IMG/VR virus record: IMGVR_UViG_3300027985_000557
Coordinates: 1-64,000 of that record
Length of the DNA stretch: 64,000 nucleotides
DNA from: a virus
Strand: one strand, 5' to 3'
Made by a program: the position numbers and the translations under genes. This document shows, piece by piece, positions 15,000-38,515 of the stretch. Numbering within the stretch: the first letter of the stretch is position 1; the number at the start of each line of letters is the position of its first letter. The notes under the pieces are model-generated. The model searched no databases. It had not been told where the DNA came from and saw only the letters and a list, made by a program, of their open reading frames with translations.

Positions 15000-15500
15000 A
15001 TGAAAGGAATCGTACCCTCTAAGCATGTTCGTCCACACATGCTCACCCTGGACATCGGGCAGGCTGTCTACGACTGCACTGATGAAATCGAAGACCTGCG
15101 CAAAACCCGCGCCCGTCTCATTTACATCATGCGCTCTATCATGCGGATGATAGGCCCCAAGGACGTTTATGGGCACTGGATCTTCGCCAATACCGGAGGA
15201 CAGCGTACCTACCAGCGCACCCTCTCCCAGGTCATGGCCGAAGTCTTTGCCGTGAACAAAAAGACGGCGGATGGCCTTCAGTGGATCATCCTGCTGCACG
15301 GCATGGCTGAGGACTGTGAAGACCTTGCGAAAGAAAATGGACAATTCGCCCTGGCCCACAGATGGAAACTGGTGTACCGTCTTATGGGCTGGGTCCACGC
15401 CCTGTTTGAACCTCAGTACCCGGACGACGCGAGCGCCGAATGGGCCGCCGCCATCATGCTGTACGACCGAATTACCAAGAAAATTGGAATGCAGAAGTAG
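15000..15500 (+). CDS. Hypothetical helical protein, 166 aa
   Basis: The ATG at 15000 is preferred over an upstream in-frame TTG that would overlap the previous gene. The protein is largely alpha-helical with no cysteine cluster, signal or membrane segment. It lies immediately upstream of the polymerase gene (eight-base gap), so it may belong to the replication operon. No family recognised. Confidence 0.55.
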   Translation: MKGIVPSKHVRPHMLTLDIGQAVYDCTDEIEDLRKTRARLIYIMRSIMRMIGPKDVYGHWIFANTGGQRTYQRTLSQVMAEVFAVNKKTADGLQWIILLHGMAEDCEDLAKENGQFALAHRWKLVYRLMGWVHALFEPQYPDDASAEWAAAIMLYDRITKKIGMQK

Positions 15501-15508
15501 GGGGACGC

Positions 15509-18181
15509 ATGGATTTCTTCAGACGGGTGTTGGCACCCGCATGTTCTAAGTGCGGCCTTTCCGGCCGATGCACAACCCATCAGATACCTGTTCGTGGGCA
15601 AGGGCGGCTGGGCGTTCTTTTTGTGGGCACGTCGCCGTCGCCGGAAGAAGATGCGGCCGGGACGCGCGGGGTAGGACCGGAGCATGCCCTGATCCAAGAA
15701 ATGTTCAGTGGGTCGGACATTGACCTGGAGCGGGACTGCTGGCGCGTGGATGCCGTGAACTGTGTGTCCTACAACCGCAAAGGCGAGCGCCGCCAACCCA
15801 CGGACGCCGAGATTGACGCCTGCCGGCCTGTATTACAGAAAGTATTACGCGATCTGAAGCCCAAAACCGTCATTCTCATGGGCAACGCGGCCCTGAAGTC
15901 ATTCTATGGGGCGGAAGGGTCCGGGCATCAGTACCTCAACGTCGAAAGGTACATGAACCAACGCATTCCGGACACTAAGAACGGAGCGTGGGTCACTGCT
16001 ATCTATGCCCCGGAGCACATGGTCGCCAATGACTTCAACCAGAACCTGCGCATGGTCTATGACTTCAGTTACGAAGCCGTCTACGACTGCATAGATTTTG
16101 CCCCGCCCCAGGTGGTGGACTACGACTCCATGGTGCAGGTGCTTACGGAGTTCAAGGACGTTACCAGCGTCTTGCAAGAAGTCATCGCCAAAGTGCCGTC
16201 ACGGTTCACACACGATTACGAAGCGAACTGCATCAAACCGCATTGGCCCGACGCCGTCTTGTATTCCATGTCCTTCAAAACGCCCCTTTCTCGCTTCGCC
16301 TATAGTTTTCCGCTGCATTGGCCGGGGCATTGGTCGGACGCGCAAGCACGGATCATTGACGAACACGTACACCGCATCTTACAGCACCGCCGGATAGGCA
16401 AGGTGGCCCACAACATGTCGATGGAGGATGGTTGGGCCGCCAAGCACCTGGGCGCATTGGTAGCCCCGTGGCTCAGCGACACCATGGTGGCTCAGCATAT
16501 CATCTGTACCGAGCGCAATACCAAGGGCCTCAAAGATCAGGCGTGGTTCCGCTATGGTGTCCACGGGTACGATGACCCGGTGGACGTCTACCTCAAGTCG
16601 AAGGGAACCTACAACAACATTCACCGCGCCCCGAAGCCCCTCATTCTGCACTACGGCGGCTTGGACAGCATATTCACGGACAGACTGTTCGTTGACCAGC
16701 GGGAATACATTGAGGCACAAGGACGCGATGATCCCCGATACCTCGCCGTCGATGACCTGTTTAAGCGCGGGGCCGTGGTCCTGAACCGTATTTCCCAACG
16801 AGGCTTCCGCACAGACGGGGCATTCTACAAGGAGCAGGCTACCAACCTTGAAGCCGAAATAGCCAAGCTGTCCGAGCGCCTGCTCAACTGCCGTGAGGCC
16901 AAACTGTTCACGCGCGAAACGGGCCGGCAACTACGCCTTGATTCTTCTGATGACCTGCGCTACCTGCTGGTCAACGTCATGGGTTACAAGATCGATAAGC
17001 GCACCGGGGCCGACAAGGAGGCCGTGGACAAGGAGATCTTACAGGAGATTGGGTCGCGGTTCGCTAAGAATATGCTGGCCTACCGTAAGGCGGGCAAGAT
17101 TCTTAGCACCTACGTCAGTCCGTTCATAAAGCTGGCCGTGGACGAACGCATTCACCCTAGCTTCAACCTCCATGTGGCCCGGTCTGGCCGGTCCAGTTCA
17201 TCCGAACCCAACTTCCAGAACCTCCCCAAGCGCGACCCCCTGGCGAAGCAGTATGTACGCAAGGGCATCATACCGGACGAAGGCTTTCACTTCTGTGAAG
17301 CGGACTACAGTTCTCTGGAAGTCCGCATCTTTGCGTGTCACTGCCTGGACCCGGTACTCATCGACTATGTGAACGACCCGACCACGGACATGCACCGGGA
17401 CCAGTGCGTCGATCTCTTTATGCTGGACGGCCAGGAGTACGTGTCCAAGGCCATGCGGACGGACATCAAAGCCGGTTGGGTCTTCGCCGAGTTCTACGGA
17501 TCATATTACAAGAGCTGCGCCCGCAAGATGTGGGATGTAATGATCCTACCCAAGAAGATATGTCTGCATGATCCTGTAGCTGGTGGCAACGGTATTACCC
17601 TCATGCAGCATCTCGACAACAAGGGCATCAGGAACCACGCGGACTTCGAGGCCTATCTAGAAGACTACGAAAAGAACAAGTTCTGGTCGCGGTTCGCGGT
17701 GACTAAGGAATACCAGATGAACGCCTTTAAGGAGTACCAGCGTAAGGGCTACATCGAAACCAAGTGGGGCTTCCGGCGGGGCGGCTTCCTGTCCAAGAAC
17801 AAAATCATCAATACTCCGACACAGGGCACCGGCTTCCAGAACCTCTTGTGGTCCCTTGTCGAGATGGACAAAATCCGGCTGAAAGAGAAGTGGCGGTCTT
17901 TCTTTGTTGGCCAGATTCATGACTCCATTAACAGCAACATTCACCCCGACGAATTGCAGTATGTGCTCGATATTCACCACTACATCATGTGCGAGCGCAT
18001 CCGTGAATTGCACGACTGGATCATAGTCCCCCTTGAAATCGAAGTCGCTATCGCCCCGGTCAACGAACCGTGGTACTTCACCAAAGACTACATCAAGATT
18101 CAGACGGGTGAGTGGGTTCAGAAAGACCTGTACCGCCAGGATGAAATCGGTAACTGGTTTCCCAAGGAAGTAGCCACGTAG
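15509..18181 (+). CDS. Uracil-DNA glycosylase-like / family A DNA polymerase fusion, 890 aa
   Basis: ATG 15509 lies behind GGGGG; the longer frame would overlap the previous gene. Residues 1-~195 are a UDG-superfamily domain with an N-terminal CSKCGLSGRC (iron-sulfur type ligands), then VLFVGTSPSPEED and a VILMGNAALKSFYG strand. Residues ~225-420 form a 3'-5' exonuclease with THDYEAN, AHNMSMEDGW and a GLKDQAWFRYG region. The polymerase domain follows, with motif A EADYSSLEVRI (~600), a motif B RTDIKAGWVFAEFYGSYY and motif C QIHDSI (~803, Ser in place of the usual Glu). This is the replicative polymerase; UDG-polymerase fusions occur in some phages. Confidence 0.9.
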   Translation: MDFFRRVLAPACSKCGLSGRCTTHQIPVRGQGRLGVLFVGTSPSPEEDAAGTRGVGPEHALIQEMFSGSDIDLERDCWRVDAVNCVSYNRKGERRQPTDAEIDACRPVLQKVLRDLKPKTVILMGNAALKSFYGAEGSGHQYLNVERYMNQRIPDTKNGAWVTAIYAPEHMVANDFNQNLRMVYDFSYEAVYDCIDFAPPQVVDYDSMVQVLTEFKDVTSVLQEVIAKVPSRFTHDYEANCIKPHWPDAVLYSMSFKTPLSRFAYSFPLHWPGHWSDAQARIIDEHVHRILQHRRIGKVAHNMSMEDGWAAKHLGALVAPWLSDTMVAQHIICTERNTKGLKDQAWFRYGVHGYDDPVDVYLKSKGTYNNIHRAPKPLILHYGGLDSIFTDRLFVDQREYIEAQGRDDPRYLAVDDLFKRGAVVLNRISQRGFRTDGAFYKEQATNLEAEIAKLSERLLNCREAKLFTRETGRQLRLDSSDDLRYLLVNVMGYKIDKRTGADKEAVDKEILQEIGSRFAKNMLAYRKAGKILSTYVSPFIKLAVDERIHPSFNLHVARSGRSSSSEPNFQNLPKRDPLAKQYVRKGIIPDEGFHFCEADYSSLEVRIFACHCLDPVLIDYVNDPTTDMHRDQCVDLFMLDGQEYVSKAMRTDIKAGWVFAEFYGSYYKSCARKMWDVMILPKKICLHDPVAGGNGITLMQHLDNKGIRNHADFEAYLEDYEKNKFWSRFAVTKEYQMNAFKEYQRKGYIETKWGFRRGGFLSKNKIINTPTQGTGFQNLLWSLVEMDKIRLKEKWRSFFVGQIHDSINSNIHPDELQYVLDIHHYIMCERIRELHDWIIVPLEIEVAIAPVNEPWYFTKDYIKIQTGEWVQKDLYRQDEIGNWFPKEVAT

Positions 18182-20137: not shown

Positions 20138-20150
20138 CATGGAGGAAAGC

Positions 20151-21377
20151 ATGGCCGACACTCCTGTTCGCAGACGTCCCGCCCCTGCCCCTGCGGCCAC
20201 CCCAGCGCCTGAGCCTGTCCGACGCCGGCCCGCGCCCGTAACTGCCCCACAAAGCGCGATCGATAAAGTGGCGGAGCAGGTGGCCGAATCCGCCCTGTCC
20301 GAGCCCCAAAAGCGTGAGCCGGTCAACACCGACATCATGATTTCTACCGGGTCCACCCTGCTCGACCTCGCCATTTCCGGCGGCATCATCCGGGGCGGCG
20401 GCATACCGGGCGGCATCCTTGTCGAGATGTATGGCCCGTCCGGTACTGGCAAATCGGCAGTCATGTGCGAGATACTCGGCAACGTGCAACGAAAAGGCGG
20501 TCTGACCTCCACACAAGACCCCGAAGGTCGCCTCAATGCCGGGTACGCCAAGGTCTACGGCATGAACATCGACCCCAAGTCGTATGATCGTCCTGACACC
20601 GTTGTTCAGGCGTTCACCAACACCCGGAAGTTCATTGCCAGCCATTTTCGCAAAAAGAAGACTGATCCGATAAACGCCATCGGCACAGATAGCCTTGCCG
20701 CTCTCTCATCTGAACTGGAGATGAGCAAGGACGGCGATAAGATGGGCATGAAGAAGGCCAAAGACCTGAACCAGGAAATGCGCCTTACCTGCCGAGACAT
20801 CGCAAACTCAGGCAACCTCGTCATCTGCACAAACCAGGAACGTGGTGAAGGCTACGACGCCAAAACGCCCGGCGGTCAAGCCGTGGGGTATTACGCCTCG
20901 GTTCGCCTTCGTCTTACTCCCGACCACGCCAATGATGTGAAGAAGGACGTCAAGGTCAAGGAAGTTCTGGGCATTGTGGACGAGGACGACGAGGACGATC
21001 CGAATACCAGAACGGAAGCCAAAAAAGGTCGTAAGGGGAAAAGCGAAAAGGGACAGGTCGAGAAAGTACTCGGCATTCGTACGAATATCGCCGTGGTCAA
21101 AAGCTCGGTGGATGACCCCTACCGCATGGCCTACGTCTACATCGTCTTTGGCTACGGCATCGACGACGTGCGCGCCAATCTCCAGTGGATGAAGGATATG
21201 CTTCAGACTACCACCTACGTGACCCCGAGCGGTAAGAAATTCCAGGGTATCGCCCAGGCCATCGACTCGGTAGAAAAGTACGGCGAAGAAGCCGCCTTGC
21301 GGGAGCAGGTCATCGACTTGTGGGAGGCCATCGAGAACGCCCTGAAGGTCAAGCGTAAGCCGAAGGTTAGGATATAG
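20151..21377 (+). CDS. RecA/UvsX-like recombinase, 408 aa
   Basis: The start at 20151 has GGAGG at 20141-20145. The N-terminal ~45 residues are a Pro/Ala extension with two copies of PVRRRPAP. The RecA core follows with STGSTLLDLAISGG, Walker A GPSGTGKS (~94-101), an IGTDSLAAL strand acting as Walker B, and VICTNQERGEGYDAKTPGGQA (L2/motif region). A strongly acidic insert (VDEDDEDDPN) interrupts the C-terminal part. It catalyses strand exchange for recombination-dependent replication and repair. Confidence 0.92.
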   Translation: MADTPVRRRPAPAPAATPAPEPVRRRPAPVTAPQSAIDKVAEQVAESALSEPQKREPVNTDIMISTGSTLLDLAISGGIIRGGGIPGGILVEMYGPSGTGKSAVMCEILGNVQRKGGLTSTQDPEGRLNAGYAKVYGMNIDPKSYDRPDTVVQAFTNTRKFIASHFRKKKTDPINAIGTDSLAALSSELEMSKDGDKMGMKKAKDLNQEMRLTCRDIANSGNLVICTNQERGEGYDAKTPGGQAVGYYASVRLRLTPDHANDVKKDVKVKEVLGIVDEDDEDDPNTRTEAKKGRKGKSEKGQVEKVLGIRTNIAVVKSSVDDPYRMAYVYIVFGYGIDDVRANLQWMKDMLQTTTYVTPSGKKFQGIAQAIDSVEKYGEEAALREQVIDLWEAIENALKVKRKPKVRI

Positions 21378-21379
21378 TC

Positions 21380-21550
21380 ATGGTTAAGTACCCATACTGT
21401 TCATTCATGTTGACCATTCGTTTTCACCCGTTGGCCTGGGGATTACGATTCCGTAACCACCGCCTTACCAAGACGGCAAAGGAGAACGGAAACGATTACG
21501 GATTTATGCGCGTCGGTCCCTTCACTTTTAGCTTCTCAAGAATGCTGTAG
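21380..21550 (+). CDS. Small basic protein, 56 aa
   Basis: Starts two bases after the recombinase stop and ends ten bases before the next start, so it fills the gap exactly. It is basic and aromatic (RFHPLAWGLRFRNHRLTKTA), with no membrane helix. The absence of a clear separate ribosome binding site suggests re-initiation after the recombinase. Function unknown. Confidence 0.5.
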   Translation: MVKYPYCSFMLTIRFHPLAWGLRFRNHRLTKTAKENGNDYGFMRVGPFTFSFSRML

Positions 21551-21559
21551 GAGGTAGGT

Positions 21560-21811
21560 ATGGCACCTTCACCGCTTTCCATACTCCAACTCCGCATCCT
21601 TGAATACCTTGTCAACGAGGCTCCCGACCGTGTGGCGACAAAGCGCATGATTGGTACGGCTATCTTCGGTGCCCAGGAGTTCGTGGCAGACAAGGTGTGG
21701 CCGGATTGCAAGGCGCTGGAGGAAATGGGGCTTATCTCCCGCATGAACGTACTTCACAACGCGGTGTACTCTCCCACGGACAAAGGTTACGAATACATCA
21801 GGACACGATAA
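21560..21811 (+). CDS. Winged-helix-like DNA-binding protein, 83 aa
   Basis: GGAGG precedes the ATG. The whole chain reads as one winged helix: LSILQLRILEYLVNEAP, a recognition-type helix (VADKVWPDCKALEEMG), then a wing LISRMNVLHNAVYSPT and a final helix. It could be a small regulator of middle genes or a DNA-bending accessory factor. No specific family is assigned. Confidence 0.6.
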   Translation: MAPSPLSILQLRILEYLVNEAPDRVATKRMIGTAIFGAQEFVADKVWPDCKALEEMGLISRMNVLHNAVYSPTDKGYEYIRTR

Positions 21812-22206
21812 TGCTTTTACAGTATATGAAGAACCACGTGGCTGATAGGCTGGATCATATTGAAAAACACCTAACCGAAGCACGTCGGCAACTCGCTGTT
21901 GTTTCTTCTGATGAAGCCCTTATAATCCGTATGAAGGCGTGCTTATCCCTTGGCACCGAAATTGATGTAATTAAGGGTGATACCGAATCTATCCTAGCCG
22001 TTATCGGAGCCAAAGGCGATAACGAAGATGCTATGAAAGACATGACTCCGGTCATTGAAGAACTCAACAAAATGCGAGAATTACGGGGGGACACGGTAGA
22101 CAAATGTCCCGGAGGCGGCGGTTTCGGCAAACATCCTGATCATATGAACGCATGCGCCACGTGCCCGGTGTATGACGCATGCGTAGAAGCCTGCGACGGG
22201 GATTAA
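21811..22206 (+). CDS. Helical protein with SSB-type C-terminal Cys module, 131 aa
   Basis: ATG overlaps the previous TAA (TAATG). Residues 1-~90 are helical. The C-terminus is CPGG ... FG ... ACATC ... YDAC (Cys at 99, 115, 118, 124). It matches the C-terminal module of the ssDNA-binding protein at 13 of 26 aligned positions with identical spacing. The shared module suggests a common partner or a shared zinc-binding tail function. Location between recombinase and 5'-3' exonuclease supports a role in replication or recombination. Confidence 0.65.
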   Translation: MLLQYMKNHVADRLDHIEKHLTEARRQLAVVSSDEALIIRMKACLSLGTEIDVIKGDTESILAVIGAKGDNEDAMKDMTPVIEELNKMRELRGDTVDKCPGGGGFGKHPDHMNACATCPVYDACVEACDGD

Positions 22207-22207
22207 T

Positions 22208-23104
22208 ATGATCACAAACAGGAAATTCGTTGTGGTGCTCGACTGTAACGGCATCATGCACATGCTGAAGCATGGCATCAAACGCGACATGTCCCACGGG
22301 GGATATGAAACGAGCATCATATACGGGTTCCTGGGACAGATCCGGTACTATGCGGCTCGTTTCAACACGAGCCGCTTTGTGTTCGCCTGGGACTCGCGTA
22401 AATCTCTGCGAAAAGAACGATACCCGTGGTACAAAGAGAAGGGCAAGGAAGAGACGCCCACCGACCAAGAGATTGAGTTTGAAGCATCTGTCTACCGGCA
22501 GTTCAACCAGATTCGCCGCTACGTGGTGCCGACCATCGGGTTCAAAAATACCTTCCACGTCGCCGGGTACGAGGCTGACGACCTTATCGCCAACATACTC
22601 ATTCAAAACCCGGACAATCGGTTCATACTGGTGTCTCGGGACGCGGACATGTACCAACTCTTGCGGTACTGTCTGATCTGTAATCCGGCAACCAAAGAGC
22701 TTTACAGCACGGCCGAACTGCAAAACGAATATGGTGTCACACCCGAGCAGTGGGTGGACATCAAGAAACTCGGCGGCTGCACGTCTGACAAGGTGCCCGG
22801 GATACCCGGCGTCGGCGAGGGTGTAGCGGGCCAGTGGATCCGAGGCGAGCTAAAGCCGAAAGGAAAACGCTATCAAGCTATAGCGGCCGACCTTGCCAAC
22901 GAAAACAGCGTGGCGGCTCAAAATGATTGGTTGGTGCGCTTACCTCTACCGGGGACACCGGATATTCGCATTTCCTTTGATGACGAAGTACTCAGCCTGT
23001 ACGGCTTCGAGGACGTGTGCTCGCGCTATGGCTTCGCATCGCTTCTGGAAAAGACCACCTTTGAAGTATGGAAAGCGCAACTGAATTTGCGGGAGGAGGA
23101 CTAG
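22208..23104 (+). CDS. 5'-3' exonuclease / flap endonuclease
   Basis: The PIN/FEN fold is evident: VVVLDCNGIMHML (first acidic residue), FVFAWDSRKSLRKERYPWYK, GYEADDLIANIL and ILVSRDADMYQLL carry the metal-binding acidic residues. The helix-hairpin-helix GGCTSDKVPGIPGVGEG binds DNA. At 298 residues the length matches T4 RNase H or T5 D15. It should remove RNA primers and flaps, since the phage polymerase lacks the PolA 5'-nuclease domain. Confidence 0.92.
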   Translation: MITNRKFVVVLDCNGIMHMLKHGIKRDMSHGGYETSIIYGFLGQIRYYAARFNTSRFVFAWDSRKSLRKERYPWYKEKGKEETPTDQEIEFEASVYRQFNQIRRYVVPTIGFKNTFHVAGYEADDLIANILIQNPDNRFILVSRDADMYQLLRYCLICNPATKELYSTAELQNEYGVTPEQWVDIKKLGGCTSDKVPGIPGVGEGVAGQWIRGELKPKGKRYQAIAADLANENSVAAQNDWLVRLPLPGTPDIRISFDDEVLSLYGFEDVCSRYGFASLLEKTTFEVWKAQLNLREED

Positions 23105-23107
23105 CTC

Positions 23108-23908
23108 ATGCGCGCCATTGGGTTGGACATGTCGATCACCTGTGCTGGGGTGGCCATCGTCCATTTGACCTCTGCTGGTCTACACTATCAAACCGTGAAG
23201 CGTGTCACGTCCGCACCGGGCAAGGGCTCGGACGCCTTGCGCTACCACCACATCTGTGAAGAGATTAGCGACATCATCTGCCTGCGGCCCACGGACCTCG
23301 TATTCATTGAAGAGTATGCCTACGGGGCCAACGGCCAGATTACCCGCATTGCCGAACTTGGCGGCACCTTGCGCTACAAAATCCTCGTTGAACAGGAATT
23401 TGACTATGCCCGGTGGTTTGAGGTTGGTCCCTCTGCCCTCAAGAAGTTCATAGTAGGCAAGGGTAACGCGGCCAAGGAACAGGTGATTAAGGAAGTTTAC
23501 AAGCGGTACGGCTATGATGCGGCGGACAACAATGAAGCCGATGCCCTGTCTCTTGCCATGCTGGGCGGCACCCTCATGAACATGGACAACGTCGAGCCGG
23601 CCAAGTACCAACGGGAAGCCATTGAGGCTGTCCTCAAAAGGAACAAGGTCACCCATGAGCAATTTCGACGGCTTATTCCGGCGAAGACAACCGAACCAAC
23701 CACAGCAGGAGCCGCAAAAAGCGCCCCAAGCGGCCCCCGTCGCCGCCCCAGCACAACCCAGCCCAGCGGCCCCGCAGACGGCCAAGGCGGCTCCGTCTGC
23801 ACCCCCAGCGCCCCTACTGCGCCGACGCGCCGACGCCTTAGCGCCGGCCCCGCCCCTGACGTCCCAGGACTCTTCCAGCGAAGAATACCTGTCCAAAGCA
23901 AAGAATGA
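23108..23908 (+). CDS. RuvC-like Holliday junction resolvase with overprinted Arg/Pro tail
   Basis: The RNase H-fold core (residues 1-~180) shows MRAIGLDMS (first Asp), VFIEEYAYGANGQ (Glu) and DNNEADALSLAML (C-terminal Asp cluster), the four acidic positions of RuvC. The remaining ~80 residues are low-complexity Pro/Ser/Thr/Arg with SGPRRRPS, APTRRRLS and, close to the end, PGLFQRRIPV. This tail is encoded in DNA that overlaps the next gene for 254 bp in another frame. The enzyme should debranch recombined DNA before packaging. Confidence 0.85.
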   Translation: MRAIGLDMSITCAGVAIVHLTSAGLHYQTVKRVTSAPGKGSDALRYHHICEEISDIICLRPTDLVFIEEYAYGANGQITRIAELGGTLRYKILVEQEFDYARWFEVGPSALKKFIVGKGNAAKEQVIKEVYKRYGYDAADNNEADALSLAMLGGTLMNMDNVEPAKYQREAIEAVLKRNKVTHEQFRRLIPAKTTEPTTAGAAKSAPSGPRRRPSTTQPSGPADGQGGSVCTPSAPTAPTRRRLSAGPAPDVPGLFQRRIPVQSKE

Positions 23909-25471: not shown

Positions 25472-25819
25472 GTGCCCAAGGTCAAAGCCTATCCCATCGA
25501 CATCACGACAACCGTTCTTGTCGAACGCACCGACGAAAACGGCAATTGGGTTAACCCCCTTGTGATGACCGTCATGCCCAACAACGATGGTGGCATGACG
25601 CGTATGTTCTCCCTCCTGTTCTCTGAAGCCAAAGACCCCTGGTGCGTCCCGGCTTTGCTTCCCCATGTAATCATGGGCGAATACGAAATTACCGACGAAC
25701 TGGCGCAGCAGTATCGCGAAATGGTCAAGAAGATCAAGCACAAAATCCAGATGGAAACGTCCGGCATCGTCGCCCCGTCCCAGGCGGCCTTGCGGGCCAT
25801 TCAGAAGGGGAATGCCTAA
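25472..25819 (+). CDS. Hypothetical protein, 115 aa
   Basis: GTG at 25472 is used; the neighbouring ATG at 25470 is in another, short frame. AAGGAG lies eight bases upstream. The first two thirds are beta-rich, with a helical, lysine-rich C-terminal third. It ends by overlapping the thyX start (TAATG), which suggests co-regulation with nucleotide synthesis. No family recognised. Confidence 0.55.
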   Translation: MPKVKAYPIDITTTVLVERTDENGNWVNPLVMTVMPNNDGGMTRMFSLLFSEAKDPWCVPALLPHVIMGEYEITDELAQQYREMVKKIKHKIQMETSGIVAPSQAALRAIQKGNA

Positions 25820-26622
25820 TGCCTGCCGCCGGACTTTCGGTCGAACTCTTGGCTTATACGCCGAACGCGCTGGCCCTGGTCAATGCGGCCATGCGCCAGT
25901 GCTACTCGGACGGCTACGCCATCGACATCTTCGATAAGGCTGCCGATGCCCTTTCCGGGGCCGACAGCTTTGAAGAATACAAGCGGCTGAGCGACTTCAT
26001 CGAAGATGTTATCGCTTCGGGTCACGAGTCGCCAGTCGAACATGTCAACTTTACCTTCGCGGTGTCCGGTATCAGCCGCGCCCTGTCCCACCAACTCGTG
26101 CGCCATCGCATCGCCAGCTACAGCCAGCAGAGCCAACGGTATGTGGATGCCAACGGTTTTGCCTACATTATTCCGCCGGCTATCGAAGCCATTCCAAAGG
26201 CCAAGGCCGCGTTTATCACTATGATGGACGAGGCGGCGGAAACATACCAAGAGCTCCAGGGGATGCTTATCGAAGCTGGGCACAAGGCCACGGCCAACGA
26301 GGACGCTCGGTTCGTACTGCCCAACGCGTGCGAAACCCGCGTGGTATTCACCATGAACATTCGCGCCCTGTGGAACTTCTTCGGTCTGCGGTGCTGCTCC
26401 CGAGCACAGTGGGAAATCCGGGCCATGGCTGTCAAGATGCTGGGCCTGTGCCGTGCCATGGAACCCGCTCTGTTCAAATTGGCAGGAGCCAAGTGCCTCC
26501 GTACCGGCTACTGCAACGAAGGCCCCAAGCGCACGTGCGGTAAGCGCCCGTTGTTACCCGTGCCGATTACGCCACTTTACACCGACGAAGAACTTACCGA
26601 ACTTAGCAAGGACTGGCCCTAG
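25819..26622 (+). CDS. thyX: Flavin-dependent thymidylate synthase ThyX
   Basis: The signature RHRxxSxxxxSxR is present as RHRIASYSQQSQRYV (about residues 94-108). The surrounding pattern ASGHESPVEHVNFTFAVSGISR and LPNACETRVVFTMNIRALWNFFGLR is the standard ThyX fold for FAD and dUMP binding. At 267 residues it is close to family length. It makes dTMP from dUMP with methylenetetrahydrofolate. In a phage with possible thymine modification a changed product (hydroxymethyl-dUMP) is conceivable, though the known hydroxymethylases are ThyA-type. The ATG overlaps the previous stop. Confidence 0.95.
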   Translation: MPAAGLSVELLAYTPNALALVNAAMRQCYSDGYAIDIFDKAADALSGADSFEEYKRLSDFIEDVIASGHESPVEHVNFTFAVSGISRALSHQLVRHRIASYSQQSQRYVDANGFAYIIPPAIEAIPKAKAAFITMMDEAAETYQELQGMLIEAGHKATANEDARFVLPNACETRVVFTMNIRALWNFFGLRCCSRAQWEIRAMAVKMLGLCRAMEPALFKLAGAKCLRTGYCNEGPKRTCGKRPLLPVPITPLYTDEELTELSKDWP

Positions 26623-27572: not shown

Positions 27573-27867
27573 TGAAAAAACAGAAGTGAAGTGGGTAACC
27601 TCATGGGGTGGAACTACTTACGTGCTCAGTGGCCTCCACCCCTTTGGGGCCTCTGTGTGGAGCGGGCGTAACGAGCAAAATACGTATGATTGGCGTATCT
27701 CGATCTGCGGTGTTAAGATGAAAAAAGGGTACGACACCCTAGAAGAAGCGAAGACCCGCGCCGCGAAGATACTGCGCAAGGTCATGTTTCGCGGCATCGA
27801 GCACCTTGACGCGTACCTTGAGCAAAAGGAATCTGCTGAAGGAGCCGACCGTGATAAAGGAAATTGA
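27559..27867 (+). CDS. Hypothetical protein, 102 aa
   Basis: GTG 27559 is chosen because GGAGG (27548-27552) precedes it; the longer frame lies inside the previous gene. KWVTSWGGTTYVLSGL and GYDTLEEAKTRAAKIL suggest a small three-stranded sheet plus helix, parallel to the preceding protein. It overlaps the start of the Rad50/SbcC N-half by 17 bases. Function unknown. Confidence 0.55.
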   Translation: MSAFDEKTEVKWVTSWGGTTYVLSGLHPFGASVWSGRNEQNTYDWRISICGVKMKKGYDTLEEAKTRAAKILRKVMFRGIEHLDAYLEQKESAEGADRDKGN

Positions 27868-28933
27868 GCTTATCAACTTTCAGGGGCACGAGCACAGCAC
27901 TCTCAAACTCTCCCCAGGGCTCAATGTCATCACGGGTCCGTCCGATAACGGCAAGTCTTCTATTATCCGTGCCCTCAAGTGGGTGCTCCAGAACCGTCCC
28001 CAAGGGGACAGCATTTGCCGGCACGACACCAACGAAACCAGGGTAATCGTACGAACCAGCGACCACGTTGTGGAGCGTTTCCGCAAGGGCCGGGAAAACG
28101 CTTATGTCGTGGACGGCGAGATATTCAGGGCGATGCGCGGCGGAGTACCCGAAGAGGTGGGAAAGGCTTTGGGCATGTCAGAATCTAGTCTGCAAAGTCA
28201 GCATGAAACCCACTTCTTAATCAACCGACCCCCCGGCGAAGCAGCCAAGTATCTGAACGAACTGGCTGACCTGTCTGAGATCGATGCTGCCATCAAAAAG
28301 GCGAACAGTCTCGTCGGCAAGGCCCAGAACGATAAGCGGCATGCGGAAGTCGAACTTCAGAAACTAGACGATAAAATCGCGGAAAGCGCGAACCTGGATG
28401 CCATCGGCGTGCTGGTCGCCCGCATCGAAAGGGCGGCCGGGGCGCAAGCCACCTTGCGCGCCAAGTCGGACACACTGCTCAAAATCCTGGTTGCGTTCGA
28501 CGAAACCGTTGCCCAAGAAGCCAAAGCCAACAAGGTTCTTGAAGCTGAGGCCGACATCATGGATTTGCGGTGGCGTATCACACAGCACTGCGAACTTGAG
28601 CAACGGTTCACTATTGGACTTCAGCACTACGATGCCCTCCTTGATGCGCAGGAGGCCGTGGATAGGCTGAAGGTAGTGGAAGGTGCGGATGACCTTGCTG
28701 ATCTTAAACAAGAGGTCACGGACTTTATCAACCAGCGTGAGGTCTGCACCGATTTGATGCAGATTCTCACGAACATTCAACGGCTGCAGGAGTCGGAGCA
28801 AAGAGTACGGGGCACCGTCGATAGCATGCAAGGGGAACTTGCGACCCTGTGGGCTGATCTTAAAGTTTGCCCGACGTGTGGGGCTACAATGGGCCAACAA
28901 ACCGCGCCTGTCCAGCGTAGGAGGCCCGCGTGA
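27851..28933 (+). CDS. Rad50/SbcC/gp46-like ATPase, N-terminal half (Walker A, coiled coil, zinc hook)
   Basis: GTG start with GGAG nine bases upstream. MIKEIELINFQGHEHSTLKL and Walker A GPSDNGKSSIIRAL (about 29-42) are typical of Rad50/SbcC. A Q-loop-region segment MSESSLQSQHETHFLIN follows, then ~170 residues of coiled coil. The chain ends at CPTCG (about 340-344), the half-hook, followed by TAPVQRRRPA. Signature motif, Walker B and H-loop are absent; they occur in a separate gene at 31504. With the SbcD-like product it should form the resection nuclease of phage recombination. Confidence 0.85.
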   Translation: MIKEIELINFQGHEHSTLKLSPGLNVITGPSDNGKSSIIRALKWVLQNRPQGDSICRHDTNETRVIVRTSDHVVERFRKGRENAYVVDGEIFRAMRGGVPEEVGKALGMSESSLQSQHETHFLINRPPGEAAKYLNELADLSEIDAAIKKANSLVGKAQNDKRHAEVELQKLDDKIAESANLDAIGVLVARIERAAGAQATLRAKSDTLLKILVAFDETVAQEAKANKVLEAEADIMDLRWRITQHCELEQRFTIGLQHYDALLDAQEAVDRLKVVEGADDLADLKQEVTDFINQREVCTDLMQILTNIQRLQESEQRVRGTVDSMQGELATLWADLKVCPTCGATMGQQTAPVQRRRPA

Positions 28934-29865
28934 AACTGTACTGCTCCGCTGATTTGCACCTCAGGGCCGTGGCCCCTGTGAACCGCATCGACGACTACGT
29001 GGCCGAACAGCAACGGAAAGTCGAGTTTATAATCAACCATGCCTACGAAAATCCCCTGGCTCCGGCTATCATCTGGGGCGGGGACATCTACGACCACCAC
29101 GATGTTCCGTATTGGGTTACGGAACGATACATCAACGTGTTTAAGTCCCGGAAGACGTACCTCTATGATCCCCAGCACCTCGTGGTCTTCGGGCAGCATG
29201 ACCAGCGGTTCCACACATCTGACAAGGTGAACACGCCGCTCGGGACAACCCTAGCCGGCGTCGAGGTCATGAAGTTGTTATGGGCGGAGCCCGTCGTTTT
29301 CGAGAACGCCGGGGAGAAGCCTGTCCACATCTACGGCATGTCCTGGGGCCAGAATATTCCCGGCGTCATCACGACCGACAACGTGGTGAACATTCTGGTC
29401 GCCCACATGATGACCACGGAAAACGGTCCCTTGTGGCCGGGGCACGAAGGGTTCACCAAGGCGTCCGATTTCCTCAAGGATCATCCGGAGTTTAACTACG
29501 TCGTGACCGGCGACAATCATCAGCAGTTCGTTACCCGATACCGAGGTCGTCAGTTGATTAACCCCGGCCCGGTCATGCGGACGGAAATCGACAAGGTGGA
29601 TTTCGAGCCGGCATTTTTCATTCTGGACACCGTGTCTGGAGAAGTCGAGCGTGTGCCATTTCTCGTAACCCCGGGCAGCGAAGTGTTCTCTGTCGCGAAG
29701 GTCCAGGAGTCCAAGGAGCGAGACGAACGCCTTGAAACCTTCATTATGTCCCTGAAGGGAAACCAGGAGGAGACACTCAGCTTTCGTAAGAATCTCACCG
29801 TGTTCATGGAGAAGAACAAACTTGATGAACCTGTAGTGGAAGCTATTCAGGAGATCATGCGGTGA
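28930..29865 (+). CDS. SbcD/Mre11/gp47-like nuclease
   Basis: GTG start overlapping the stop of the ATPase N-half. Metallophosphoesterase motifs appear in order: SADLHL (DxH), GGDIYDHH (GDxxD), FGQHDQR (GNHD with Gln for Asn), LVAHMM and TGDNHQQF (GHxH equivalent). Length 311 is typical for phage gp47. The C-terminal ~70 residues are a capping/partner-binding helical region. It should cut DNA ends in complex with the split Rad50-like ATPase. Confidence 0.9.
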   Translation: MKLYCSADLHLRAVAPVNRIDDYVAEQQRKVEFIINHAYENPLAPAIIWGGDIYDHHDVPYWVTERYINVFKSRKTYLYDPQHLVVFGQHDQRFHTSDKVNTPLGTTLAGVEVMKLLWAEPVVFENAGEKPVHIYGMSWGQNIPGVITTDNVVNILVAHMMTTENGPLWPGHEGFTKASDFLKDHPEFNYVVTGDNHQQFVTRYRGRQLINPGPVMRTEIDKVDFEPAFFILDTVSGEVERVPFLVTPGSEVFSVAKVQESKERDERLETFIMSLKGNQEETLSFRKNLTVFMEKNKLDEPVVEAIQEIMR

Positions 29866-30188
29866 AAGAAGAGAAGCCGTTCAACGAGATTGGCTTTGCT
29901 ATCATGGTGGCGTGCATTCTGGGTGCTCCTATGCTCATAGGGGCTTTGAAGAACCAAGAAAACGACTTCAGAACGAGGCAATTACGCTTTCCGGTTACAC
30001 CAATGGCCCAGCGGTCATGCACGGCAGCAAACGCCCAGGACGGCATCTCTCCGGCTCCAGAAAAGCTGTTCCAGGTCCAGGCCCCCGGCCAGTGCCCCCT
30101 GGACGCCCAGCAAGACGACAAGAACATGACCAAGGAACTCATAAATGGGTTCTACAGCCCCGTAGCCCCCGGCGGGATAGGAGAATAA
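29862..30188 (+). CDS. Small membrane-anchored protein, 108 aa
   Basis: GTG start overlaps the previous stop. Residues ~9-29 form a hydrophobic helix (IGFAIMVACILGAPMLIGAL), followed by a soluble, Pro/Gln-rich tail with two cysteines. A membrane anchor or uncleaved signal is likely. It sits inside the recombination-nuclease cluster between the two halves of the ATPase. No family recognised. Confidence 0.55.
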   Translation: MKEEKPFNEIGFAIMVACILGAPMLIGALKNQENDFRTRQLRFPVTPMAQRSCTAANAQDGISPAPEKLFQVQAPGQCPLDAQQDDKNMTKELINGFYSPVAPGGIGE

Positions 30189-30189
30189 C

Positions 30190-30441
30190 GTGGAAGCGCA
30201 AGTAATGCTGGCAAAGATCAGTGGGCTGGAAAGCCAGATCGAAAAGGCCAAGCACGACAAGGCCCGGCTGAGCGGACGGGTCGAGGAACTCGTCAAACGC
30301 CTTGAAGTCGAGTTTGGCGTCAAGACCGTGGAAGAGGCCGAGGCCCTGCTCACCAAAATGCAGGAGGACATCAAGGACGGGGCCGCCCGCCTGGACAACA
30401 TGTTCACCCGCATGAAAGAAAAGCACGGCTGGGAGGTGTAG
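30190..30441 (+). CDS. Short coiled-coil protein, 83 aa
   Basis: GTG start one base after the previous stop. Nearly the whole chain is a charged coiled coil (GLESQIEKAKHDKARLSG ... LDNMFTRMKEKHGW). In this setting it could pair with the short coiled coils of the split Rad50-like ATPase, but that is a guess. No other features. Confidence 0.6.
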   Translation: MEAQVMLAKISGLESQIEKAKHDKARLSGRVEELVKRLEVEFGVKTVEEAEALLTKMQEDIKDGAARLDNMFTRMKEKHGWEV

Positions 30442-30442
30442 C

Positions 30443-30940
30443 GTGTCACTCGATGATGTTCATATTCGTATGAATGATACCGGGGAGTACACGTTGATCC
30501 TCAAATCGGATAAATGTGATCCACAGACAGGGAAGCGCCTTACCGTAGAACTTGGCGGATTTTCCACCAAGGATCTTCTTATGCTGCGGAACGCCATAAG
30601 TAATGACTTGATGGCGTGGGACGATGACGGAGTTATACCTCAACCTGATGGCATGTCATTCAAACAACTTTTGTCCTTTGTGTGGGCGATCGAAGAATCT
30701 AGCGAGATAATTCAGGCGATCTGCAAACTCCTGCGGTTTGGTGCGTTGAATAGCCCCCCGGGAAACGAATGGACAAACCACGACCTGCTCGCTAAGGAGA
30801 TCGGTAACTTCCAAGCCGCCGTCAACCGCCTTTTGCGCGAAGGTCGCCTGAGTACTGAGGGCATGCGGTTCGGCATGGTCGAGAAGGAAACCCAACCCAT
30901 ACCGGGCCTTGATTTCCCGGTACCAATCAAGGAGGAGTAA
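30443..30940 (+). CDS. MazG-like domain protein, 165 aa
   Basis: GTG start. The N-terminal ~60 residues form a beta-rich domain. The C-terminal half has WAIEESSEIIQAICKLLRFG and NHDLLAKEIGNFQAAVNRLL, the two-helix pattern with EExxE and E(I/L)GN that marks MazG-related pyrophosphohydrolase-like proteins common in phages. One usual acidic residue appears replaced in the second helix (GN in place of GD). Nucleotide clean-up or (p)ppGpp-type signalling are possible roles. Confidence 0.55.
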   Translation: MSLDDVHIRMNDTGEYTLILKSDKCDPQTGKRLTVELGGFSTKDLLMLRNAISNDLMAWDDDGVIPQPDGMSFKQLLSFVWAIEESSEIIQAICKLLRFGALNSPPGNEWTNHDLLAKEIGNFQAAVNRLLREGRLSTEGMRFGMVEKETQPIPGLDFPVPIKEE

Positions 30941-31329
30941 TGCCTGAATTTCGCAAAGGCAAGGAGATTGACTTCAAACTTAATCTCGACAATGGCAAGT
31001 ACACGTTCATCCAGTACAAGGATGGCGGTTCTGAGGCCCTGCGTTACGGAGAGCCCTGGCAGGACACCACCGGCAACAACCTCGTATTCGCACTGGCGCA
31101 CAAGCTGCACGAGGTCATTGGCGTTCTCGCTGCAACGGCGGAAGCCATGCGGTCGGCGTCTGACAGGTCAGCAAAGGTCGGCCTCAGCCTTGTAGAGCAA
31201 GTCCGGCAGGCCCAGGTACAGGCCGGCGAGGATATGGTAATCAACAACCTCAAGGCCCGTGGGTTGTTCACTACTGATGTCATGGACAGCCAGGGAAAAG
31301 GAGAAGACGATGGGCGTGAGAACAGTTGA
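30940..31329 (+). CDS. Hypothetical protein, 129 aa
   Basis: TAATG overlap with the previous gene. The N-terminal ~45 residues are beta-rich with several Asp/Lys. The middle is helical (LAHKLHEVIGVLAATAEAMRS), and the C-terminal ~25 residues are disordered and acidic. It overlaps the next gene by 20 bases. Function unknown. Confidence 0.55.
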   Translation: MPEFRKGKEIDFKLNLDNGKYTFIQYKDGGSEALRYGEPWQDTTGNNLVFALAHKLHEVIGVLAATAEAMRSASDRSAKVGLSLVEQVRQAQVQAGEDMVINNLKARGLFTTDVMDSQGKGEDDGRENS

Positions 31330-31507
31330 GCTGGATGTCTACGTCCGCTCGGTGCGGGGCGAGAGTGTCGATGTCGAATACGACGGCGTCACGGCCAACC
31401 TTCCCCTTTCGCAGGTGTCGTGCGAAAACGACTTGTTCGACATGGTCGGGGATGAGGTCACCATCGAAATCCCCGAATGGCTCGCCATGGACCGGGGCCT
31501 GATATGA
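31310..31507 (+). CDS. Small beta-rich protein, 65 aa
   Basis: AAGGAG precedes ATG 31310. A five-strand barrel is likely (VELDVYVRSVRGESVDVEYDG, EVTIEIPEWLA), similar in size to SH3/OB-like modules. Its stop overlaps the start of the ATPase C-half (ATGA), so the two are translationally coupled. Function unknown. Confidence 0.58.
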   Translation: MGVRTVELDVYVRSVRGESVDVEYDGVTANLPLSQVSCENDLFDMVGDEVTIEIPEWLAMDRGLI

Positions 31508-32106
31508 CCGAACAGGAACGGTATGCTGAACTGAGTCGGCGGTACATCAGCGCCAAGGCCGTGCGCCAGAGCCATCTTGACGAACGAGAAAAGCGGGTCA
31601 CCGCCCTGGAGGCCTTGGATAAGCGGATCGACGCCCTGACCAAAGCTCGTGAAGTCGTTATGCTAGTCGGCAAGAACACGCAGCAGGCCCTTGAATATCG
31701 CATCAGTACGCTGGTGTCCCTGGCCCTGGCAACCGTGTTTGATGACCCGTATGAGTTCAAGATCAACTTCGTGGAGCGCCGTAATACGGTGGAAGTTGAT
31801 TTCGTCCTCATACGCGATGGCAAAGAGTATGACATTCTTGACGGCACCGGGGGCGGCGTGAGTGACGTCGTGTCCTTTGCCCTGCGGGTGGCCGACTGGA
31901 AACTCCGTGGGGGCCGTCCGACGCTCTTGCATGATGAACAGTTCCGCAACGTCTGGCCGGCGGGCCAGCCCAAGGTGAGCACATTGCTCAAGAAGCTCAG
32001 CCATGACCTCGGCCTTCAGATAGTTCTGGTGTCCCATCAGGACTTGGTCAACGAGGCCGCCGATAAGACCTTTGCTGTCTTGAATAGCGCCGTCAAAGAG
32101 GCGTAA
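31504..32106 (+). CDS. Rad50/SbcC/gp46-like ATPase, C-terminal half (signature, Walker B, H-loop)
   Basis: The ATG overlaps the preceding stop (ATGA). After ~60 residues of coiled coil the second ATPase lobe appears. DGTGGGVSDVVSFALRVADW is the ABC signature helix (~112), TLLHDEQF the Walker B with catalytic Glu (~139) and VLVSHQDLV the switch His (~178). Walker A and the hook are missing here and lie in the gene at 27851. The 200-residue chain thus complements that protein to a whole Rad50/SbcC head, separated by six genes. Confidence 0.82.
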   Translation: MTEQERYAELSRRYISAKAVRQSHLDEREKRVTALEALDKRIDALTKAREVVMLVGKNTQQALEYRISTLVSLALATVFDDPYEFKINFVERRNTVEVDFVLIRDGKEYDILDGTGGGVSDVVSFALRVADWKLRGGRPTLLHDEQFRNVWPAGQPKVSTLLKKLSHDLGLQIVLVSHQDLVNEAADKTFAVLNSAVKEA

Positions 32107-36700: not shown

Positions 36701-37255
36701 TTATGGGCCAGCGTGCGCCCCAGCGGCGGCAACGGCGGCCTTAACCGCCGGAGTATTATGCCACATCCACAGGGCAACCAAGGCGATCAAAACCGCAACG
36801 CTATAGGCAATTCGTAACTCCCACTTGATGCGGTCCCATGATTCTGCCAGGGTCTTGGCTGGTTTTACTTCTTCCACAATCATAGCTTTCAGCGTGGCGA
36901 CAATATCTTCCAAACATTTCTTGGTAAGGATGTCGCGGGTGTCGTCACGCTCTTTTTGGATTGTATGCCTGGAATCGCAGGCTTGGTTACGGATGCGGTG
37001 GCCCTCGTCGATAGCCACCTTGACCTTTTCAAGAATCTCGATAATGTCAGAAGACTGCCCTTCGGTAATCTCCCGAAGGGCGTCTATGATGGTCTGGCGA
37101 GTCGGCTCGCTCTGCGCCATATCAACGATACGCTGAATCTGCTGCGTCACCAGGGCAAGCAGTTGTGATTGCTTGTTCTGGGTTTCTTGAAATGGAAGCA
37201 GAACGGACTGAAGTAGACTGACAAGCTCCCTCAGTTCATCGACTCCTGCCATCAT
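36701..37255 (-). CDS. Coiled-coil protein with C-terminal membrane helix, 184 aa
   Basis: The first ~140 residues are coiled coil (LRELVSLLQSVLLPFQETQ ... IIEILEKVKVAIDEGH). A hydrophobic helix near residues 149-165 (IAYSVAVLIALVALWMW) and a short Ala-rich end make it tail-anchored with the bulk in the cytoplasm. Its start overlaps the stop of the response-regulator gene, so the two are coupled. It could be a signalling partner of that protein or a lysis factor. Confidence 0.65.
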   Translation of the reverse strand: MMAGVDELRELVSLLQSVLLPFQETQNKQSQLLALVTQQIQRIVDMAQSEPTRQTIIDALREITEGQSSDIIEILEKVKVAIDEGHRIRNQACDSRHTIQKERDDTRDILTKKCLEDIVATLKAMIVEEVKPAKTLAESWDRIKWELRIAYSVAVLIALVALWMWHNTPAVKAAVAAAGAHAGP

Positions 37256-38127
37256 CCACCTTCCATTTTTGCGAGCATTCTTTCCGTCTCGAACAAGGTG
37301 GAAAAGGCCTCGTCCGTCTTCTCCTTGATTTCCTGGTGCTGATCACTCATGCGATTGCGGGCCAGTTCAAGGAGTTCCTTTGTCCGCTGATGGCGGTACG
37401 TTGTGTCACGGCCCACACACTGCACTTCCGTAACATGTCCTTGGACGTTGCGAATTGCACTAGCCCGCCATGAAATCCACCGACCATTCATTGTAAACTC
37501 CCCGCCATCAGCGATCTCGCACTGGTTGGCGAGGACGCGCCCCACCGTAGTGAACTGCTGTTTGGCGGCCCCGTCGAGGTAATCGCCTATCAGCGTCCCT
37601 TGCATTTCACCTTCGATCATATTGCAAAGATCGGCAAAGGATTTGTTCACAAAGGTTACAATCCCGTTTGGGCGGAACCTGCAAATATAGTCTGGTGTAA
37701 GATTTACAACAGAATCGTAAAGTTGGCAACGGTCTTGAAGTTGTTTTTCCATCTCCCATTTTTCGACCGTCAATATCAAGATTAGGGGGAGAGCTGAAAT
37801 ATCACATTTGCGTACATAGGAAGACGCGCCCGCATGGATACTGGCCTTGGCGATGTCTATATTGTCCGTCCCCGTCAGCACGATAATGGGGATATTCGGG
37901 CACATCTCCCGGACGGCCCGTACCGAGTTGATGCCAGTACTATCCGGCAGCATAAGATCGACAAGGACAACGTCAAGGCATCCCTGATCCATCAATTTTC
38001 GGGCTTCTTCCAATGTGTGACACGGAGTATAGATATAGTCTTCCGACGGCAAGTTCTTTGCCAACAAGGAACGGACGATATGGATTTGGATTTCACTGTC
38101 TTCTATGTGCAGAACACGGAAGCTCAT
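37252..38127 (-). CDS. Response regulator receiver plus PAS domain protein, 291 aa, in the lysis cassette
   Basis: GGAGGG precedes the ATG at 38127. Residues 1-~125 are a receiver domain with E9-D10, phospho-acceptor D57 (VLVDLMLPDS), T85 (IVLTGT) and K107, all intact. Residues ~135-255 are a PAS domain (NLTPDYICRFRPNGIVTFVN ... EVQCVGRDTTYRHQR). The C-terminal ~35 residues are a coiled coil. No DNA-binding, kinase or cyclase output is present. It looks able to be phosphorylated by a host histidine kinase and to signal through protein contacts. Its position between the holin-like and tail-anchored genes is unusual and suggests control of lysis timing. Confidence 0.85.
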   Translation of the reverse strand: MSFRVLHIEDSEIQIHIVRSLLAKNLPSEDYIYTPCHTLEEARKLMDQGCLDVVLVDLMLPDSTGINSVRAVREMCPNIPIIVLTGTDNIDIAKASIHAGASSYVRKCDISALPLILILTVEKWEMEKQLQDRCQLYDSVVNLTPDYICRFRPNGIVTFVNKSFADLCNMIEGEMQGTLIGDYLDGAAKQQFTTVGRVLANQCEIADGGEFTMNGRWISWRASAIRNVQGHVTEVQCVGRDTTYRHQRTKELLELARNRMSDQHQEIKEKTDEAFSTLFETERMLAKMEGG

Positions 38128-38128
38128 G

Positions 38129-38515
38129 CTACCCTCCTTCCCCAGAGGCGGCTGCGCCTTCTGGGCGTCTTCGCGGACCACCTGCCTTCGGTGGTGCGGA
38201 CGGACTAAAGAAGGAATCAGCTATTCCGCTTAATGCCGTATCGGACCCAAGCATGCACCCTTCGCTCTTGGCCTCAATGTTCTTCTGCCACCCTTTGGCG
38301 AACAAGGCCGCTACTGCTCCAAGAAGACCGGTGAAGTCAGTTAAGTTAAGGGGAATAAATTCCTTCTTCTCGATACATACAATCTTCCAAACTGAGATTA
38401 CCTCCATGAATAGGTAAATACTGGCCGCCACAGTCATCATTGTCATTATGCGCATGCTCGAAAGCCGTTTACGGTCATCCGTAAACGGCTCGAGAAGTTT
38501 GGTGAAAAATGTCAT
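38129..38515 (-). CDS. Holin-like two-helix membrane protein, 128 aa
   Basis: Two hydrophobic helices (about 23-46, MRIMTMMTVAASIYLFMEVI and following, and about 58-74, DFTGLLGAVAALFAKGW) with both ends likely cytoplasmic. A disordered charged C-terminal tail contains GGPRRRPEG. The size and topology are those of phage holins. It should form the inner-membrane lesion through which the signal-less amidase leaves. It ends one base before the response-regulator start. Confidence 0.7.
   Translation of the reverse strand: MTFFTKLLEPFTDDRKRLSSMRIMTMMTVAASIYLFMEVISVWKIVCIEKKEFIPLNLTDFTGLLGAVAALFAKGWQKNIEAKSEGCMLGSDTALSGIADSFFSPSAPPKAGGPRRRPEGAAASGEGG

Follow-up and report, generated by a model that had tools for sequence, protein, structure and literature searches.

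The 64,000-base stretch analyzed here (the window) covers positions 1 to 64,000 of the 67,045-base phage record IMGVR_UViG_3300027985_000557 and carries, on its plus strand, separate genes resembling the two halves of the ATPase Rad50/SbcC, together with an SbcD/Mre11-like nuclease and a small coiled-coil protein. The gene for the N-half (27851..28933) starts with GTG and encodes 360 residues comprising ATP-binding cassette (ABC) lobe I with Walker A motif and Q-loop, a coil of ~185 residues, and a terminal zinc-hook motif. Its Walker A motif, GPSDNGKS (27935..27958), includes G29, G34, and K35, which are invariant in the N-half alignment, and the translated hook motif, CPTCG, occupies residues 340-344 (28868..28882), 16 residues before the stop. 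The C-half (31504..32106; 200 residues) consists of a coil of ~60 residues and ABC lobe II, with the signature region GTGGGVSD (31843..31866; G116 and G118 invariant and D121 nearly so in the C-half alignment), the Walker B Asp-Glu pair D144 and E145 within LLHDE (31933..31938; also invariant), and the switch (H-loop) histidine H178 of LVSHQ (32035..32037), which is evident from both the translation and the alignment. Between the halves stand the SbcD/Mre11-like metallophosphoesterase of 311 residues (28930..29865) and small genes that include one for a conserved 83-residue coiled-coil protein, hereafter cc (30190..30441), a predicted helical hairpin whose family occurs a short distance ahead of the C-half in almost every related locus.

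A sequence-only reading of the window had taken these genes for a Rad50/SbcC/gp46 divided at the zinc hook and separated by the nuclease and five small genes. Its coordinates and motifs hold; the small genes are indeed there, but one of them, that for cc, proved to be a member of the conserved gene set described below. The profiles built from each family matched solved Rad50 structures first among the proteins of the PDB, at 8.4e-17 for the N-half (archaeal Rad50) and 1.9e-14 for the C-half (Rad50 C-terminal chains). The N-half also matched PF13476 (AAA_23; 7e-12) and phrog_16465 (7.7e-41), and the C-half matched phrog_15167 (1.9e-21) and had no significant match of its own in a Pfam search; PHROGs labels the former family "exonuclease" and the latter "ATPase". 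Among the annotated intact SbcCs compared, the N-half profile reached that of phage fJoAci01 (1.3e-6) and did not reach T4 gp46. The nuclease had a weak match to Pfam Metallophos, below the cut-off, and its family model matched Mre11 structures (4tug). Its family retains the D.H motif in 112 of 112 members, a GNHD-like motif in 109, and a GHxH-like motif in 108, and a home-made pattern for the GD..D motif was matched in 35 of the 112.

The nuclease begins with GTG at 28930 and shares 4 bp (GTGA) with the end of the N-half, and the C-half ATG likewise runs into the stop of the small gene ahead of it (ATGA), which shows that the N-half, nuclease, and C-half are separately translated, coupled genes and not products of a frameshift, as had been argued from the intervening genes. 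Frameshift, intein, and intron were each rejected on the basis of this layout.

When the open reading frames (ORFs) of IMG/VR relatives were scored with profiles built up from the proteins of the window, complete sets of N-half, nuclease, cc, and C-half were identified at 335 loci, of which 201 were non-redundant at 90% identity of the N-half, a filter that also removes loci entered twice from the same contig. These relatives were recovered by alignment-based scans; an IMG/VR scan with the single N-half protein gave no matches. The order N-nuclease-cc-C is kept in 332 of the 335 loci, and no fused ORF was found among 379 N-half and 382 C-half matches. That the hook forms the C-terminus of one chain is borne out by a CxxC near the end of the N-half in 200 of the 201 non-redundant sets, with a median distance of 7 residues to the stop, and the distance from P-loop to hook is tightly kept (quartiles 309-316 residues). 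A CxxC occurs in one of 107 C-halves (locus L122, 13840-14463), and a motif survey of the families found no second CxxC in cc. Lengths vary little, with medians of 353 residues for the N-half, 306 for the nuclease, 82 for cc, and 204 for the C-half. Where a C-half was flanked by enough DNA (n = 124), an N-half lay nearby in 123 cases and a nuclease in all 124; the single C-half lacking an N-half (L054) is on the same contig as another locus (L137), where its N-half is located. The arrangement, recurring in 335 loci, is far beyond chance, and the split is old and uniform. A search with the C-half profile across 84,980 bacterial and archaeal genomes returned one weak partial match, which gives no indication that a cellular version exists.

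No other Rad50-type N lobe was found in the 67,045-base record, in which an AAA_23 search gave one match, the N-half itself. Whole-record AAA_23 searches of 30 related records gave one match over the cut-off in 29 and two matches in none, although many of these records may be fragments and the lack of a second Rad50 is therefore strong evidence but not final.

Besides the window phage, four isolated phages carry the split, which the sequence-only reading had proposed looking for in relatives. In Bacillus phage vB_BboS-125, the N-half (gp32), a cc-like protein (gp34), the C-half (gp35), and the nuclease are encoded near one another. In Microcystis phage Mvi-JY20, four genes follow the standard order and are each annotated as "hypothetical"; the N-half, nuclease, and C-half match the profiles, and the gene in the cc position encodes a coiled coil that none of the profiles matches significantly. 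The N-half (gp155) and C-half (gp2) of Microbacterium phage Magritte are far apart. In the 308,711-base genome of the Tunturiibacter jumbo phage Tunturi_5 (loci L173 and L418), the C-half (gp14) lies at 19 kb and the N-half (gp181, with the C-terminal end CGKCGDPISKSAA) at 127-128 kb, ~108 kb away; AAA_23 gave no match in this phage and the N-half profile did. A UvsX-like recombinase is encoded two genes from the Tunturi_5 N-half. The occurrence of the split in complete genomes of cultured phages is a strong argument against an assembly artefact.

We modeled the halves together by AlphaFold2 (AF2) single-chain folding of pseudo-fusions, in which the intervening DNA was translated with stops rendered as glycine; the N-half, nuclease, and C-half share one frame in locus L049, as do the N-half, cc, and C-half in locus L015. 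The alignments were composed of natural rows and similar read-throughs, with cc rows coming from cc-in-frame fusions only. In both models, most of the lobes have a predicted local distance difference test score (pLDDT) above 90 and the meaningless spacers are disordered. VIA-align superimposed both halves on a single Rad50 head from P. furiosus (4ncj) with a Z of 27.8, covering 284 of 311 residues at 2.8 Å, and the second model gave a Z of 27.7, with 275 of 311 residues at 2.6 Å. This composite head, together with the coevolution described next, supplies the predicted association of the halves that the sequence-only reading had called for.

Mean-field couplings were calculated from 201 paired sets (effective number 195), independent of any fusion, and are given in L015 numbering. 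The couplings between N-half and C-half fall on one antiparallel diagonal with heptad-like spacing, with pairs (204,26), (197,33), (191,41), (184,47), (207,25), and (163,64). Six of the top 25 pairs lie on the antiparallel band (i+j 222-234), compared with 0.3 expected, and none lies on the matching parallel band; the band score of 5.4 exceeds the values obtained in 20 pairing shuffles (at most 3.9) and in any parallel band (2.9), and the band reappeared when the data were split at random into two halves and when a 21-letter alphabet was used. This register agrees with a coil that ascends from the head. The nuclease is coupled to the C-half through pairs (62,306), (74,292), (70,296), (59,306), and (54,298), and to the N-half through (162,309) and (162,313). 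By these computations, its C-terminal helices (~292-313, a region that is also helical in AF2) sit at the base of the coil (C ~54-74, N 162), as Mre11 sits on Rad50; Mre11 binds the base of the Rad50 coil in PDB entries such as 3qku. Couplings within cc, namely (7,74), (19,58), and (17,63), fit a hairpin.

The likeness to Rad50, SbcC, and T4 gp46 extends to the sequence and fold of lobes I and II, the Walker A and B motifs, the signature, the switch histidine, the CxxC hook motif, and the nuclease partner encoded nearby. In characterized Rad50 and SbcC proteins, a single polypeptide holds lobe I and lobe II, and the coil connecting them reverses direction at the apex; this is a description of build rather than descent. 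Measured against it, no ORF here joins the lobes. The motifs, the profile matches in the PDB, and the composite head point to one head of the SMC (structural maintenance of chromosomes) type made of lobes I and II, the couplings between the halves point to an antiparallel coiled coil rising from that head, and a zinc hook is present as a CxxC motif. T4 gp46 (560 residues) and the SbcC of fJoAci01 (724 residues) are single chains, whereas here each half has its own gene, the N chain terminates in the hook, and cc is encoded alongside. Rad50 heads have also been deposited in the PDB as N and C chains (1f2t, 1ii8, and 3qkr/3qks), and the best matches of the natural C-half profile include the B chains of 3qkr, 1ii8, and 1f2t. 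We take these entries to be laboratory constructs of intact archaeal Rad50 that lack the full coil and hook; their break is man-made, whereas the break described here is natural and lies at the hook. The families phrog_16465 and phrog_15167 (gp32 and gp35 of vB_BboS-125, for example) are those of the N- and C-halves annotated as separate things; the vB_BboS-125 record draws no link between them, and the genome paper of this phage does not mention SbcC.

Jumbo phages likewise have cellular enzymes in pieces, including a split RNA polymerase beta' and a minimal DNA polymerase III, although these are other enzymes and the passages on SbcC/SbcD in that source contain no split SbcC (PMC7824862). 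Phage SPN3US has an intact SbcC (PMC5105663). The hinge-less SMC variants from the ocean are environmental SMC-like proteins with an altered apex, but they are SMC rather than Rad50 proteins, have no CxxC, and are not described as split (PMC12153180). We found no publication on a split Rad50/SbcC in the literature searched, which left out most subscription papers.

On this evidence, we consider it likely, with a probability of roughly 85%, that these genes encode a phage Mre11-Rad50 complex (SbcCD, T4 gp46/47-like) whose Rad50 is made as separate chains that reassemble. Homology, conservation of the gene set, the composite head, the register of the N-C coil, and the docking site of the nuclease are the computational grounds for it. 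Most likely this is a multi-chain Mre11-Rad50 that has the parts of the usual complex and most probably works in the same way, with a chain divided and a small conserved protein added. The N chain would contribute ABC lobe I, the ascending coil, and the CxxC hook at its very end, and the C chain the lower descending coil and ABC lobe II; N ~150-207 and C ~25-78 (L015 numbering) would pair non-covalently as an antiparallel coiled coil to give one Rad50 head, with the C-terminal helices of the nuclease seated on the base of the composite coil in the manner of Mre11. Two such units would then sandwich two ATPs between the Walker A motif of N and the signature of C, presumably driving the nuclease with ATP, and the arms could be linked by a zinc ion bound jointly by the CxxC motifs at the ends of the two N chains. 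The likely place of the cc hairpin would be in the arm as a third chain that replaces the absent upper descending coil. According to a database record note, T4 gp46/47 are needed for recombination and host-DNA degradation; by analogy, a similar role may be expected here, with the complex processing DNA ends for recombination-dependent replication beside the RecA-like, 5'-exonuclease, and RuvC genes.

Several observations weigh against this assembly. Magritte has an N-half without a hook, being the exception in a first set in which 118 of 119 N-halves had CxxC near the C-terminus, and cc was not found at the positions inspected in Magritte and Tunturi_5. In the 201 paired sets, cc showed no convincing coupling to either the N-half or the C-half. 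The window nuclease has GQHD in place of the GNHD of Mre11 and GDNH in place of GHxH, and its activity is thus not assured. The pseudo-fusion models have a mean pLDDT of 66-76 and a predicted template modeling score of ~0.5, and their tether partly imposes proximity, so that they support but do not prove the association of the N- and C-halves. The band of N-C couplings was defined after a first view of 98 loci that overlap the 201 and is not a fully independent test, and the binomial P for these couplings treats pairs as independent. The GQHD and GDNH variants also occur in the L015 nuclease and may mark a subgroup.

The number of Rad50-related chains is probably three rather than two, because the gene for the ~80-residue cc, which precedes the C-half, matches the other members in conservation. 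The C-half coil reaches only N ~207. A further ~130 residues of N coil separate that point from the hook, and the descending strand absent from this stretch would most obviously be supplied by cc. That the apex is built differently from that of a normal Rad50 is an inference. An extension of the reassembling complex, to which we give slightly less than even odds, is a divided arm in which the N hook sits at the apex, cc packs on the upper N coil as the descending strand, the C-half supplies the lower descending strand, and the breaks act as a clasp that could open to DNA while the hook and heads stay joined. It gains from the conservation and order of cc, which are as tight as those of the halves, from the confidence of the cc hairpin and of the N helix toward the hook in the L015 model (pLDDT ~90 for both), from a C-half coil too short to reach the hook, and from the sum of 205 and 80 residues, which approximates the hook-to-end length of T4 gp46. 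The lack of convincing coevolution of cc with its proposed neighbors, the lack of a second CxxC in cc, and contacts that are not readable from the AF2 models count against it, and neither the models nor the couplings fix the positions of the hook and cc relative to the C-half coil. Further, it is conceivable, if rather unlikely, that the arm is by nature discontinuous, composed of the N chain with its terminal hook, the cc hairpin, and the C chain, and able to open or exchange pieces, in which case a DNA ring would be gated in the arm and not only at the heads and hook.

Doubtful, by comparison, is a fold-back of the N coil that would place CxxC part-way down the arm by the start of the C chain and make the apex a turn within the N chain. 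In 98 loci, N ~190-238 and ~285-336 were coupled antiparallel (band 520-528, score 4.7), and the N coil of the L015 model is broken twice, at ~239-246 and ~276-284. With 201 loci, however, the band score was 3.2, barely over the control, and the register had shifted to ~502; the strong single pairs (227,311), (207,314), and (225,296) persisted but were diffuse, and the L049 model has one long low-confidence helix in the distal N coil. We regard it as highly improbable that the halves do not form one ATPase and are instead relics, or independent proteins that work with other partners. Annotators do name them apart, and they are far apart in Tunturi_5 and Magritte, but the catalytic motifs are conserved in both, the halves co-occur almost perfectly, their couplings are antiparallel and heptad-spaced, and they form a composite head in AF2. 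A sequencing or assembly artefact, frameshift, intron, or intein concealing one intact gene has a negligible chance of being correct given the other same-strand genes between the halves, the stop a few residues past the hook in 200 of 201 N-halves, and the four isolated phages.

Long-range allostery in Rad50 has been discussed (PMC5093744), and signals are believed to pass between the head and the long arm with its apical hook over the length of the coil. A widespread family in which one chain ends at the hook raises the question of whether Rad50 can do without a continuous arm or a looped hook, and the split offers structural studies small parts of head, arm, and hook that can each be expressed separately. 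Annotation pipelines overlook it because each half resembles an odd fragment. A reassembling Mre11-Rad50 would link the separately annotated phrog_16465 "exonuclease" and phrog_15167 "ATPase", suggest a function for a so far unnamed family of small coiled-coil proteins, and, if true, be a new and testable architecture for a universal complex that processes DNA ends.

Elsewhere in the window, genes for a RecA-family recombinase, a 5'-exonuclease, and RuvC are located at 20139-23908, upstream of the split Rad50 genes. A family-A DNA polymerase of 913 residues (15440-18181, plus strand; DNA_pol_A, 6.5e-45) has an N-terminal domain of the uracil-DNA-glycosylase superfamily at residues 55-201 (PF03167, 2.8e-12). 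A ThyX-type thymidylate synthase (PF02511, 1.6e-67) is encoded at 25819-26622 on the plus strand, and a radical-SAM-like protein, under the Pfam cut-off and, judged by eye, possibly like spore photoproduct lyase, at 11354-12778 on the same strand. On the minus strand, a single protein (37252-38181) has a PAS domain C-terminal to its response regulator receiver domain (7.8e-16), a combination uncommon among phages.

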